A DNA stretch of 64,000 nucleotides from positions 806,001 to 870,000 of the forward strand of contig SCHM01000005.1 in the NCBI GenBank assembly GCA_004123355.1, written 5' to 3'. Position numbers and translations under genes: made by a program. This document shows positions 49,378 through 59,407 of this stretch, piece by piece. This DNA comes from Amphirosellinia nigrospora (Eukaryota; Ascomycota; Sordariomycetes; Xylariales; Xylariaceae). Position 1 is the first letter of the stretch. Each line of letters starts with the position of its first letter. The notes under the pieces are model-generated. The model was not told where the DNA came from, searched no databases, and saw only the letters and a program-made list of their open reading frames with translations.

Positions 49378-51550
49378 CTATAATCCCCACCCTTTAATCA
49401 TCACGCGAAAGGCACAAAGGGAAAGAAAATGCAAAAAAGGTTCATCAAACCCAATCATCACCCCCTTCTGCTTCCGCAACCACTCGTCGTTCACGTCCTG
49501 ATAATCATCAGGCCCATACGGCTGCACGATCTCAGCGAACCACCCGCTTTTCCGATGGGGTTAAGCCCAAGGTCCCGCTGGAGCAGATCAAAGTACGGCA
49601 CGGCATCAAACGTGAAAGCCGGGCGTCTATTCCCCCAGTCCGTCGGGTACCGCCACCTGCCCCAGCGATTAAACAGCACGGTCTCATACCGGAGGCTTCT
49701 CCCTCCTCGTTTCCCATCTCCCTTCTCACCAGTACTTAGTAACGAGGTTGTGGAGGTGCTCGCCCCCTCCTCCTCCCCGTCGCCGGCGTCGATGGCCAGC
49801 TTCCCGGAGAAGAAGGCGCTGATCCACAGCCCGCAGAGGTGCGCCGTGATGGCGTTGCTGAAGTTGGACATCATCCCCGTGAACGCGACGTCGCGCGTGC
49901 GCAGGAACCGCGCCGACGCGGGTACCATGAAGCGGTGCAGCATGAAGGGCGTCAGCGGCGTGTACGGCGTGACCTCGCCGGCGCCGCTGTCGATGCCCTT
50001 CTGGTCCGTCATGGGCCTGTAGCCCGTGTTCCACACCGGCTGGTCCCGGAGGCGCGGGAACCGCCGCAGGATCTCCTCGTCCGCGGCGTCGATCAGGCCC
50101 TGCTGGTTCGCGAGGTCTTGCGCCGGCGCGGAGTCGGTCGTCGGCTCGTGCGGGATGCCTAGTTCCGCCTCAATGCCCTCGGGTAGGAACTTGATGCCTG
50201 GCACGTGCTTCCAGCCTGTGCTGGCGAAGAGCACGTCCGATACGAATGCCGTACCGTCTGCGAGGTGCACCTTGTCGGCGCCGAGATGGTCGATCTCTCC
50301 GATGTGAACGTCTACTAGATCGCTCTTGATAAGCGGGAAGATGTCCCGGTCGTAGTTCAGGGTGCCGATGCTGTCGGCCGTAAACATAAAATCCGTCCAC
50401 GGCTTCAGCTTTGCCGTGTCCGGGTGTGCGTCGTAGTCGTTCTGCACTAGTACATCGCCACCTATCGTGCTGTAAAGCTTGTTTACGAGGAATCGGCCTA
50501 TCGCCGTGTTGTGGAAGAAGCGCCGTATCCAGCCGTAGCCATCGGCGTCGCCCCATATGCACGGACAAACCAGGTGACGAAGCGTGTGTCTTTGTTGCCC
50601 ACAAAGTCAGATAATCTTAAGCATTGTAGCATTCAAGGGTGAAATACTCACTGGCGAGCTTTTCCGCCCGTAATTTCAGAGGCGTTGCGTAAGGACTGGT
50701 GATCCAACATGGCCCATGACCTCTAGCTATCATCTCAAGTCAGTCACATGGAAGTTTCTCTAGGCGGGTTGCATCAAGAGGGGGAAGAGTCGTACAGCGA
50801 ACTACCCAATTCACTTTTACACCAGCAGTAGCATAAGCGTAAACAGCATCCCAGCCAGACTTCGTAGCGCCGAAAACAGTGACAGCATGAGCCGTCTTCA
50901 GCGTATCGCTATTCTCTTTAAAATCCTTCCCATGGAAGATCCTACCCCCGGCATCTTCGAAGTCCTCTTGTCCGTCGAAGTGCGGGAGGAAGGCCTGCGA
51001 AGTCATGCCGGTAGCGACGATTAGGTGGCGGGCCAGGGCTCTCTTCTCCCCTTACCAGGAGCCGCGATAGTGAGGATCCAGCCTCCATCGTGCGTGTCCC
51101 GGTGTTCCGCAGACAGCACTTTGTGGTTGAAACGGACGAGACGGGATATACCGGTATGCTCCGCATAGGCCTTGAGATAAGAGTTCAGGACCGTTCCTTT
51201 GATATGTTCATCAGGCTTGACGTCGAACTTCTCACTGCTCATAGGAAACCCGGGGTACTCATAAGTCCCAAGCATGTTATTGCTTTTCAAGGTGGGATAT
51301 AGACGCTCCTCTGCCACGTCCACCTATCGATGCTTGAGCATCGAGGATGACTAACGACTTGTCGGGTTGGGTGTAGCGGAACTGCGAGGCAGCGGCTAGC
51401 CCATACCATCCTGTCACGCAAGCTTAGCAATGCACACACAAAATATCTCGGCGGATCCCCGGTCCAATCCTGGCGGCGAACAGTGATGGGAAACGAGGGG
51501 GAGAAGAAGGTCCTACCGGCACCGATCACTACGCAGTCAAACTCCTCCAT
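49378..51550 (-). CDS. Flavin-containing monooxygenase
   Basis: FAD- and NADPH-dependent monooxygenases of this type add oxygen to N, S or carbon centres, including indole C3. Exon 1 (51517-51550) starts MEEFDCVVIGA. An intron at 51411-51516 follows, and the junction encodes the FAD site VVIGAGWYGLAAASQF (GxGxxG). Later come EERLYPTLKSNNMLGTYEYPGFP (about 51300), RIFHGKDFKENS (about 50935), the NADPH site VFGATKSGWDA (about 50870), and an open stretch 49491-50447 with FASTGWKHVPGIKFLPEG. Near the end a one-base gap (about 49545) moves the frame to GWFAEIVQPYGPDDYQDV, and a stop at 49378 then fits. Other breaks lie near 51320, 51030 and 50740-50600. It is the leftmost of four co-directional enzyme genes. 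The natural substrate is unknown. The context suggests an indole. Confidence 0.82.
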
Positions 51551-57781: not shown

Positions 57782-59407
57782 TCAAGATTCGGCCAGAATC
57801 ATACCGGCGAGCTGCTCGGCTACCGCATACAGCGTGGCTTGAGGATGCCCACGAGAGGTACTGGGATGATGCTGGCGTCGGCAACTCTGAGTCCGGTGAC
57901 GCCCAACACCTTGCCCTCCGCATCAACCACCCTACCCATGGCCGCGGTACCACCGGAGTGCTGGTGCTGCTCCCCAGTCCGCTGGAGTCGGTCCAAAATC
58001 ACCTCATCACTAGCGTCAGCAGTAAGCGGTGTTAGCCCTTCCAACCCTTCTTTGACAGGTGGAGCTTCACTCTCGACTATAGCCTTCAGGTTTTCGGTTG
58101 CTGTTAGGACTTTGACCGTTCTGCGGGTGGCGTGCACAAGAACGTCGCGATCATGCTGAGTTGAGAGATAATTCGGTGGATACGCGGGAGGTCTGTTGGT
58201 GAGCTAGATCGAATGGTGACCGTACCTCGGGACGTCGGGAGCAGCAACATGGTTGACGTAGAGATATGAGTACCGTCGATCGGGATACCAGGGATGCCTG
58301 GCACGACATAGGCAGTTAAGATTTCGTAGACATTTCGTTTATCCCAGTCGGGCTTGGTCTCATTCTTGTGCTTCGAGAGAATATCCTCTGGGAGAGTATG
58401 ATTGGCAATCCAATCCACGGGAGACCCTTGAAGAAGGCAGGGTTCTGAAAGCCCGTGCTCCCAAAAGCGTACCCGAGTGAAGGGTCTCGCAAACGATAGG
58501 CGAGGTGAATGGCATAATGATCATGGAGATTTTGACCGACGTGCGGGGACTCGTGTATCAGTGGAATGCCGTGTTGAGCAAGGTCGGCCGATGGGCCAAC
58601 GCCTGAGAGCATAAGAATCTTCGGGGTCTGGTACGCGCCGGCCGACACGATGACCTCTTTCCGCGCAGTGACTTTGGCGGCGTCGGCGAGCTCCACGCCC
58701 GTAGCTTTTTTGGCATCGTCGAAGATGACTCTGTACGCGGGGGCGGTCGGTAAGGACATTGACTTTCTCGAGCGGGTAGACGACGGTGGACGGTTGGCGC
58801 ATGCCTTTGCTGTCGGCGTTCTCATGCATCTCGACCAAGCCTGCGCTAGCGCCATTCTTCCTATCCACGTTATGAGTGACCCGCAACCTCGGCCCAGGCC
58901 TTCTTGACCGTCTCTCGAAGGGGGTATTTGCGTTGTCCGTCATCGGCGCCTGACACCGAGGTGACATACATAGGTCCGTCGAAGCCATGCTCTTGAGGGT
59001 CGGCGCTCGAGTCATAGTATTTCTCCGACTTGACAAACCATGGCTTGAGGCCGTTGTAGCTCCAGCGCTTATCACCGGCTAGCTCAGCCCACTCATCGTA
59101 GTCGGCCGCATCTCCTCGAAGCCAGCCACCGAAATTGATAACAGTACCTCCACCCAGGGCTTTTCCAGCGCTGAGGTGGTGTACGCGATCAGACGTGGTC
59201 GGGACAGGTTCGCTGGGATAGGCGTAGTCAAGCTCGCCGCCTTGAAGTGAGAGGCCGGTCAGGAAGAAGGCAGTGGCAGGATTGCCGGTCGGTCAGGACC
59301 TGCTTCGAGCAGGATGACGTCCTTGCCATTCTGACTGAGACGTGAGGCTACAACACACCCGGCGAGGCCCGCGCCCACGACAACATAATCGCAGTCAAGT
59401 CAGCCAT
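57782..59407 (-). CDS. GMC family FAD oxidoreductase
   Basis: GMC oxidoreductases oxidise alcohols or sugars with FAD. Some finish secondary metabolites. The start MADLTA at 59407 is followed, one base out of frame, by [31 protein letters not shown], the FAD-binding fold. Next come [15 protein letters not shown] (about 59165) and [23 protein letters not shown] (about 59090). Piece 58104-58418 contains [24 protein letters not shown]. The C-terminal piece (57820-58137) has [14 protein letters not shown] and [21 protein letters not shown]. One base out of frame again, [21 protein letters not shown] ends at 57782. Both GMC signature regions are present. At least five frame changes occur. Length fits the family (about 540 residues). 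It is the first gene of the co-directional block. Confidence 0.85.

Follow-up and report, generated by a model that had tools for sequence, protein, structure and literature searches.

Described DMATS systems and the layout of the locus

Fungal DMATS-type prenyltransferases are usually linked to ergot-type alkaloids, indole diterpenes or prenylated peptides. In Ozaki 2013 (PMC3617294), the actinomycete clusters are sorted into type A, which contains a tryptophanase, and type B, which contains an FMO that converts prenyl-tryptophan to the aldoxime; SCO7467 and IptA are described there as tryptophan dimethylallyltransferases. The sequence-only reading of the present locus had regarded DMATS, tryptophanase and FMO as one set known from actinomycetes. 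This did not hold for the 80 actinomycete DMATS loci that we compared, of which 25 contain a tryptophanase and 49 an FMO but none both, in agreement with the division into types A and B in that paper; a three-enzyme actinomycete cluster may exist outside this sample. That no fungal pathway with such a set has been characterized is consistent with our literature search, in which no report of a tryptophanase-DMATS fusion was found either.

The window, i.e. the whole analysed stretch of 64,000 nucleotides from Amphirosellinia nigrospora, harbors the GMC, tryptophanase, DMATS and FMO regions at the coordinates and on the shared minus strand first proposed for them. The four enzyme types stand, but the supposed four adjacent co-directional genes are three, because intact relatives of the tryptophanase and DMATS regions are single proteins of about 900 amino acids that align from 56246 to 53385. 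The GMC oxidoreductase (choline dehydrogenase-like, 57782..59407) matches PF00732 and PF05199 and is 90% identical to Xylaria polymorpha P0241. It is followed by the tryptophanase-DMATS gene (53365..56246, ca. 900 amino acids), with introns at 56029-55937 and 55051-54954, and by the gene of a FAD-dependent monooxygenase resembling class B FMOs (49378..51550), with an intron at 51516-51411. The reading frames of the latter are broken by one-base switches; its ORF 50740-51051 matches PF13434/PF13738 and the protein is 84% identical to Xylaria castorea P0121, the likeness to relatives ending at 49465 while the gene was called to 49378. All three introns, one in the FMO and two in the fusion gene, splice exactly to the proteins of the relatives. 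On one flank a ribosomal protein eL13 gene (46373..46843, minus strand), which likely marks the cluster boundary, matches PF01294 in one frame (E 1.2e-23) and continues in a second frame that was identified by eye and gives no Pfam match on its own. The neighbor on the other flank is a fragment of a gene with a fungal rhodopsin domain (Fung_rhodopsin, 62303..62872, plus strand; PF20684, E 6.4e-28).

The tryptophanase-DMATS fusion and its two domains

Tryptophanase and DMATS are encoded here by one fusion gene. The X-joined pieces align over 100% of their length with Xylaria scruposa P0001 at 84% identity, the best among the matches listed, and a tblastn search with residues 1-898 of P0001 spans 56246-53385 of the window. 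An open frame that bridges the end of the tryptophanase and the core of the DMATS domain (54161..54502, minus strand, 113 amino acids from stop to stop) had been considered direct proof of the fusion. It was downgraded to supporting evidence, since the coding path, as judged by eye from a comparison of the window frames with P0001, seems to pass out of this frame and back into it within the linker. The search of fungal genomes for co-located tryptophanase and DMATS genes that had been suggested as a check found the two joined: both domains occur in 88 of the 120 relatives among the matches listed, with tryptophanase first and DMATS C-terminal in 88 of 88. These relatives comprise dozens of fungal proteins with annotations such as 'beta-eliminating lyase', 'tryptophanase' or 'pyridoxal phosphate-dependent transferase'. 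The same genome harbors a second fusion copy on contig C5, where no FMO or GMC gene was found within about 20 kb in ORF lists inspected by eye and C5 as a whole gave no FMO match. That the fusion is widespread in fungi, and at this locus lies beside the genes of two flavin enzymes, suggests that fungi make prenylated indoles by a dedicated pathway of their own, which seems not to have been described.

The N-terminal domain (54466..56246) belongs to the tryptophanase/tyrosine phenol-lyase family, with a PF01212 match of E 3.2e-17 on ORF 55194-55949 and 8sl7 (tryptophanase) as the best PDB match of the X-joined pieces (E 2.3e-120). The fusion shares the PLP lysine, pocket and cofactor residues with this family and differs from it by the extra C-terminal DMATS domain. 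P0001 passes the NCBIfam tryptophanase subfamily model NF009709 (469.6 bits, cut-off 285) but stays below the TnaA equivalogs TIGR02617 (288.5 vs 825.8 bits) and NF053783 (301.1 vs 750 bits), by which the fusion domain is classified as a subfamily member and not as a TnaA equivalog. Among fusions longer than 780 amino acids, K324, R284 and R486 are each found in 75 of 75 and D187 in 74; the PLP lysine is retained in all 75, the Asp of FFDTT in 74 and a His close to the end of the domain in 65. The PLP lysine and the substrate and cofactor residues can also be recognized by eye in the window's own pieces. Arg at the R381 position, which we take to be decisive for tyrosine phenol-lyase, occurs in none of the 75 fusions (A 58, S 14, other 3), and P0001 fails the tyrosine phenol-lyase equivalog TIGR02618 (264.8 vs 720.7 bits). 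Residues and family models thus rule out a tyrosine phenol-lyase and support a TIL-like rather than a TPL-like assignment. Where 72 of 75 fusions have Ala or Ser, the archaeal tryptophanases P0111, P0117 and P0120 have Leu, and this ring-facing position is also Leu in 25 of 25 actinomycete tryptophanases. The small residue in the fusions may hint at room for a prenylated ring. Small ring-facing residues (A/S) are also common in stand-alone fungal tryptophanases.

The C-terminal domain (53365..54436) is a DMATS-type prenyltransferase of bacterial-like character. Its X-joined pieces match PDB entries 6zry, 7w8u, 5inj and 6os3 (E 2e-20 to 3e-16), and the only chain among the PDB matches that we take to be fungal has an E value of 0.029. 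None of the four ORFs of the region gave a Pfam match by itself, and a PF11991 search of the own genome returned four other DMATS places and missed the fusion locus; the domain is recognized only in the joined pieces or in intact relatives. Intact P0001 passes PF11991 (37.2 bits, cut-off 25) and lies outside the DMATS subfamily model TIGR03429 of NCBIfam (93.6 vs 163.85 bits). A scan of contigs with the fusion DMATS alignment gave 13 pattern matches, none of which was confirmed. Nine conserved positions, presumably the catalytic Glu and the diphosphate-binding Lys/Arg/Tyr set, are all retained in 52 of 75 fusions (with His or Tyr allowed at one) and at least one is altered or absent in the other 23; the Glu itself is kept in 72. 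The set was also seen by eye in the window's own pieces. Classical fungal DMATS enzymes (ergot/indole alkaloid type, PF11991) are of the same Pfam family and have these Glu and Lys/Arg/Tyr positions in common with the fusions, but the four of this genome are far from the fusion domain in the tree.

Proposed pathway and alternative readings

We consider it probable, at roughly 0.7, that the three genes form a compact secondary-metabolite cluster centered on one bifunctional tryptophanase-DMATS enzyme, in which prenyl-tryptophan is converted to prenylindole and then oxidized. The DMATS domain would use DMAPP to dimethylallylate L-tryptophan on its indole ring, and the tryptophanase domain of the same polypeptide would cleave the prenyl-tryptophan to prenylindole, pyruvate and ammonia. 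The FMO would oxidize the released prenylindole, and the GMC enzyme would further oxidize the FMO product or its prenyl alcohol. The substrate, the order of the steps, the ring position and the final product in this scheme are those we infer. The order of the domains, tryptophanase before DMATS, is opposite to the proposed order of the reactions and counts against this reading.

One-base frame switches interrupt all three genes, most densely the fusion gene, where at least 19 were counted over about 2.6 kb. Decay generally is expected to give many more residue changes than indels. In the tryptophanase half, 10 switches contrast with no more than 8 own residue changes, 5 of which adjoin a switch, so that the switches are most likely assembly errors. 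A decaying pseudogene cluster would explain several switches in each of three genes, a density in the fusion far above that of the HSP70 control (four in about 3.6 kb, in two genes), the long open frames of some HSP70 genes (657 amino acids at C5:4071527), and 38 own residue changes in the DMATS half against 3 in X. scruposa, although 13 of the 38 are no more than six columns away from a switch and the joined piece was partly out of frame in this count. Nevertheless, eL13 and HSP70 genes likewise switch frame, if at a lower density than the fusion, so that the balance of switches and residue changes is the stronger argument for assembly error; with intact splice sites and 84-90% identity to intact relatives as well, decay is a very improbable explanation. 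That FMO and GMC are unrelated neighbors and that the fusion alone makes a prenylindole, perhaps a volatile signal, is unlikely. Co-location was counted by hand from shared contigs and gene numbers in three lists of 120 rows (relatives of fusion, FMO and GMC). Among the matches listed, with 88 fusion rows, all three genes are on one contig in five other species and the fusion is with one of the two in six further species; gene numbers are neighboring in Anthostomella (134890 FMO, 134910 fusion, 134920 GMC) and in Xylaria multiplex (fusion and GMC, g9283 and g9284). The three are listed on different contigs in at least six species (Xylaria digitata, X. palmicola, X. longipes, Nemania FL0916, Hypoxylon FL1857 and Diatrype stigma), none of the fusions listed for Podospora, Colletotrichum, Metarhizium or Mycena is on a contig that also appears among the FMO or GMC rows, and both families are broad, with close relatives in fungi that have no listed fusion. 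Homologs at unrelated loci with no shared phylogeny had been named as evidence against joint function; co-location is conserved across species and recurs in some other Xylariales, with all three genes on one contig in five species and on separate contigs in at least six.

The two steps could also run in the other order, with tryptophanase freeing indole from tryptophan, DMATS prenylating the free indole and the fusion trapping this reactive intermediate. The order of the domains in all 88 fusions fits such a sequence, yet SCO7467 and IptA, the actinomycete relatives of known function, prenylate tryptophan according to PMC3617294. The small ring-facing residue of 72 of 75 fusions could weakly favor a prenylated ring as well, set against Leu in the actinomycete enzymes and a small residue in many stand-alone fungal rows; on balance we find the reversed order rather improbable. 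Horizontal acquisition of an actinomycete type A operon would account for a DMATS domain that resembles bacterial and not ordinary fungal enzymes. However, the tryptophanase domain is only about 33% identical to actinomycete tryptophanase and groups in the tree with fungal and archaeal/metagenomic tryptophanases, the DMATS domain is about 30% identical to actinomycete DMATS and forms a separate clade, and the gene order is reversed. On tree position and gene order this highly improbable transfer was rejected. Because the fungal domains are so far from the actinomycete ones, the coupling of DMATS and tryptophanase in the two groups looks convergent.

Comparison with the actinomycete clusters

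We think it somewhat more probable than its opposite that a prenylindole synthase on a single polypeptide arose independently in fungi, that Streptomyces arrived at the same coupling in the opposite order, that selection holds the steps together, and that the FMO/GMC cluster of Xylariales leads to oxidized prenylindoles. Selection for keeping the two steps together is suggested because fungi and Streptomyces would have coupled them independently and in opposite orders. If so, coupling could serve to hand on prenyl-tryptophan or to stop free indole from escaping, and the opposite-order fusions would serve as a natural experiment, and a clean one, on whether joining two consecutive enzymes matters. 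On this reading, very common fungi would be expected to produce small prenylindoles that may be volatile; with a bacterial-like DMATS joined to a tryptophanase under the protein names given above, cluster predictions may well miss the fusion.

Similar to the fungal locus, type B clusters have a DMATS gene beside an FMO gene (SCO7467 and SCO7468), but there the FMO takes the place of the tryptophanase (PMC3617294), whereas the fungal locus has both. The FMOs of the sampled actinomycete loci are about 25-30% identical to the fungal FMO over partial length. In type A clusters, such as that with iptA and a tryptophanase in Streptomyces sp. SN-593, DMATS and tryptophanase are physically coupled as in the fungi, and the conversion of tryptophan via prenyl-tryptophan to prenylindole is, by analogy, expected to be alike in the fungal fusion. 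The tryptophanase follows DMATS in all 25 sampled loci that contain one, as a separate gene in 20 and in one open frame in 5, always with DMATS first and thus opposite to the fungal order; it is from a different branch than the fungal enzyme, and none of these 25 loci contains an FMO. With the order reversed and the lineages apart, the fungal locus does not belong to type A, although by sequence comparison it is predicted to work like a type A cluster.

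The fusion protein and its domains

The enzyme types, minus-strand orientation and positions put forward in the sequence-only reading, namely a flavin monooxygenase (FMO, 51550-49378), a DMATS-type prenyltransferase, a tryptophanase and a GMC oxidoreductase (59407-57782), were all found in the A. nigrospora assembly (48.1 Mb, 11 contigs). The four separate genes of that reading were not: as in intact relatives, tryptophanase and DMATS form a single fused gene (56246-53365, minus strand). The protein database contains such single proteins of about 900 amino acids with PF01212 and PF11991, and residues 1-898 of P0001, the Xylaria scruposa fusion, align to 56246-53385 with no gap fit for a second promoter. 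Five of ten scanned stop-to-stop ORFs gave Pfam matches (one FMO-type, one PF01212, two PF00732, one PF05199) and five gave none; four ORFs of the DMATS region, each taken alone, had no Pfam match. By eye, the residues checked in both domains are present in the pieces of the window. Among the matches listed, the closest named relatives are from X. scruposa for the fusion (84%), X. castorea for the FMO (84%) and X. polymorpha for the GMC enzyme (90%). The flanks are an eL13 gene (46373-46843, minus strand, PF01294) and a fungal rhodopsin-domain gene (62303-62872, plus strand), so the cluster unit probably comprises just the fusion, FMO and GMC genes. The window also holds an NLR-like gene (39608-42075, plus strand) with a frame that looks nucleotide-binding by eye (39608-40051) and tetratricopeptide repeats (40270-41226) of very similar tandem units.

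Both domains occur in 88 of the 120 relatives listed out of 818 matches, with tryptophanase preceding DMATS in 88/88. The other 32 have tryptophanase only, some perhaps being clipped gene models. Hosts include Xylaria, Hypoxylon, Rosellinia, Biscogniauxia, Podospora, Triangularia, Colletotrichum, Metarhizium, Corynespora, Diaporthe and Mycena. The liverwort Riccia sorocarpa is also recorded with two proteins, one a full fusion and the other a stand-alone tryptophanase (P0051, P0080), on contigs of 31.9 and 52.3 Mb; they fall among fungal proteins in the tryptophanase tree and may represent either fungal contamination or gene transfer into the plant. Among the papers listed from the open-licence literature, none describes a tryptophanase-DMATS fusion in fungi, and the phrase 'fungal tryptophanase' occurs in no paper of that literature; a published case may exist elsewhere.

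With 469.6 bits, the P0001 tryptophanase domain exceeded the 285-bit cut-off of the NCBIfam model for the tryptophanase subfamily and stayed below those of the TnaA and TPL equivalogs. Residues were counted over 75 fusions longer than 780 amino acids. The PLP lysine is kept in all 75, and none has Arg at the position of TPL Arg381, the decisive residue for TPL; 72 have Ala or Ser there. The equivalent position is Leu in 25/25 actinomycete rows; in the 32 stand-alone rows it varies, with Leu in 14 and Ala or Ser in 12. The P0001 DMATS domain passed the Pfam cut-off (37.2 against 25 bits) and scored under that of the NCBIfam DMATS subfamily (93.6 against 163.85). It matches nine PDB chains, mostly bacterial ones, with E-values of 3e-30 to 2e-14 (among them CymD, PriB and a 6-DMATS); GliD1, a fungal chain, gave 0.029. 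The catalytic Glu is kept in 72/75 fusions and all nine checked DMATS positions in 52 (His or Tyr allowed at one), while 23 have at least one of the nine changed or missing (gap). Glu replaces one DMATS Arg in eight fusions (P0027, P0034, P0046, P0050, P0052, P0057, P0060 and P0064). Judged from these residues, the DMATS half of some deviating fusions may be altered or dead; possibly they are a paralogous branch.

Frame switches and assembly quality

The coding sequence of the fusion, FMO and GMC genes is in each case spread over several frames. In the fusion, 10 switches fall within the tryptophanase part and 9 within the DMATS part, with further ones, seen by eye, in the linker, a higher density than in the HSP70 and eL13 controls. 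Two HSP70 genes (C7:1398639-1400377 and C8:855379-857197) are split by frame switches with no space for an intron, their pieces overlapping by 4 to 10 bases with the profile continuing across, four times in ca. 3.6 kb; other HSP70 genes of the assembly lie in long open frames, one of 657 amino acids. The eL13 gene of the window matches PF01294 in one frame and by eye continues in a second, which alone gave no Pfam match. One-base indels are present in the assembly and unevenly spread, which makes pseudogene calls in this genome unsafe. Three introns, two in the fusion and one in the FMO gene, splice exactly to the proteins of relatives.

Gene decay is expected to give several residue changes per indel. 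Only 8 residues of the tryptophanase part differ from X. scruposa and two other relatives, and 5 of the 8 are next to a switch; because its own changes per switch are so few, the switches in the fusion are most likely assembly errors. The DMATS part, with 38 changes of its own against 3 in X. scruposa, is less informative on decay, since 13 of these lie beside switches and the joined piece is partly out of frame.

Four of 12 arbitrarily picked 10-kb stretches of the assembly have a G+C content of only 6-12% and no ORF of 200 amino acids (C4:5000001-5010000, C5:3000001-3010000, C6:5000001-5010000 and C7:1500001-1510000). These extreme AT-rich blocks perhaps reflect heavy RIP.

Linkage with FMO and GMC genes

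Co-location was counted by hand as a shared contig, recognised by its length, over the rows for fusion, FMO and GMC relatives. All three share a contig (length in brackets) in Astrocystis sublimbata (1177038), Anthostomella pinea (868120), Annulohypoxylon truncatum (1064784), Truncatella angustata (2975170) and Xylariaceae sp. FL0255 (120100). The fusion is with GMC in Xylaria nigripes, Xylariaceae sp. FL1272, Xylaria multiplex and Hypoxylon sp. EC38, and with FMO in Nemania sp. FL0031 and Hypoxylon trugodes. Among the matches listed, the missing partner is on another contig in X. nigripes (FMO), Nemania sp. FL0031 and H. trugodes (GMC), and all three are apart in Xylaria digitata, X. palmicola, X. 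longipes, Nemania sp. FL0916, Hypoxylon sp. FL1857 and Diatrype stigma. These last six species count against a conserved cluster. The fusion shares a contig with one or both partners in at least 11 of 88 fusion rows, a lower bound because each set of matches was listed to 120 rows only, with one representative per cluster. Anthostomella gene numbers are neighbouring (134890 FMO, 134910 fusion, 134920 GMC), with 134900 not seen among the matches listed; in X. multiplex the fusion g9283 adjoins g9284, a GMC of 67%, and a more similar GMC (79%) is located elsewhere in that species. No contig sharing was seen in Podospora, Colletotrichum, Metarhizium or Mycena among the matches listed.

In A. nigrospora itself the nearest FMO paralogue (66%) is on contig C4, and a second fusion copy lies at C5:6900713-6901420, with identities of 69% and 50% over two stretches. 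By eye, this copy (L013:4200-7330) continues from tryptophanase into DMATS-like sequence, has Ser at the ring-facing position, and shows frame switches of the same kind plus one stop in the linker. An ankyrin-repeat gene precedes it and methyltransferase frames follow; ORF lists over ca. 20 kb, read by eye, show neither an FMO nor a GMC.

Proposed pathway and comparison with actinomycete clusters

Most likely, tryptophan would be prenylated first on the fusion polypeptide and the prenylated tryptophan then cleaved to prenylindole on the same chain, with FMO and GMC acting afterwards. Substrate, step order, ring position and tailoring are predictions; the fusion is an observation.

FMO, DMATS and tryptophanase had been ascribed to actinomycete clusters as one set. 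A search with bacterial DMATS gave 116 relatives, from which 80 loci (79 different sequences) were kept. Tryptophanase lies directly downstream of DMATS on the same strand in 25 (105-212 nt between matches), FMO matches anywhere in the locus in 49, neither enzyme in 6 and both together in 0/80, which does not support such a set; misses are possible in these counts because contig ends cut some loci and the FMO test is weak (ca. 25-30% identity). The counts agree with the division of actinomycete DMATS clusters into type A (with tryptophanase) and type B (with FMO) in Ozaki 2013 (PMC3617294), where the type B FMO converts prenyl-tryptophan to an aldoxime.

Quick trees were built for both domains. 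In the tryptophanase tree (67 rows, with selected fusions) the window clusters with X. scruposa (99), fungal stand-alone rows are interspersed among the fusions, the neighbours of the fungal rows are archaeal (Asgard) and metagenomic enzymes, and eight actinomycete rows from the 25 form one distant clade. The DMATS tree (42 rows), for which the program warned of long branches, unites 19 fusion domains in a single clade (100); 19 of the 80 actinomycete rows and the four ordinary DMATS of this genome lie outside it. A nearer bacterial source for the DMATS domain of the fusion may exist. Both trees, together with the reversed domain order, argue that the coupling of DMATS and tryptophanase was assembled separately in fungi and actinomycetes. 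In five of the 25 loci (L043, L044, L046, L047 and L061, all Streptomyces; the proteins of L044, L046 and L047 look almost identical) both enzymes share one stop-free open frame with DMATS first, whereas tryptophanase comes first in the fungal fusion. That such fusions occur naturally in fungi as well as bacteria, with opposite domain orders, is the best argument that prenylation and cleavage belong together.
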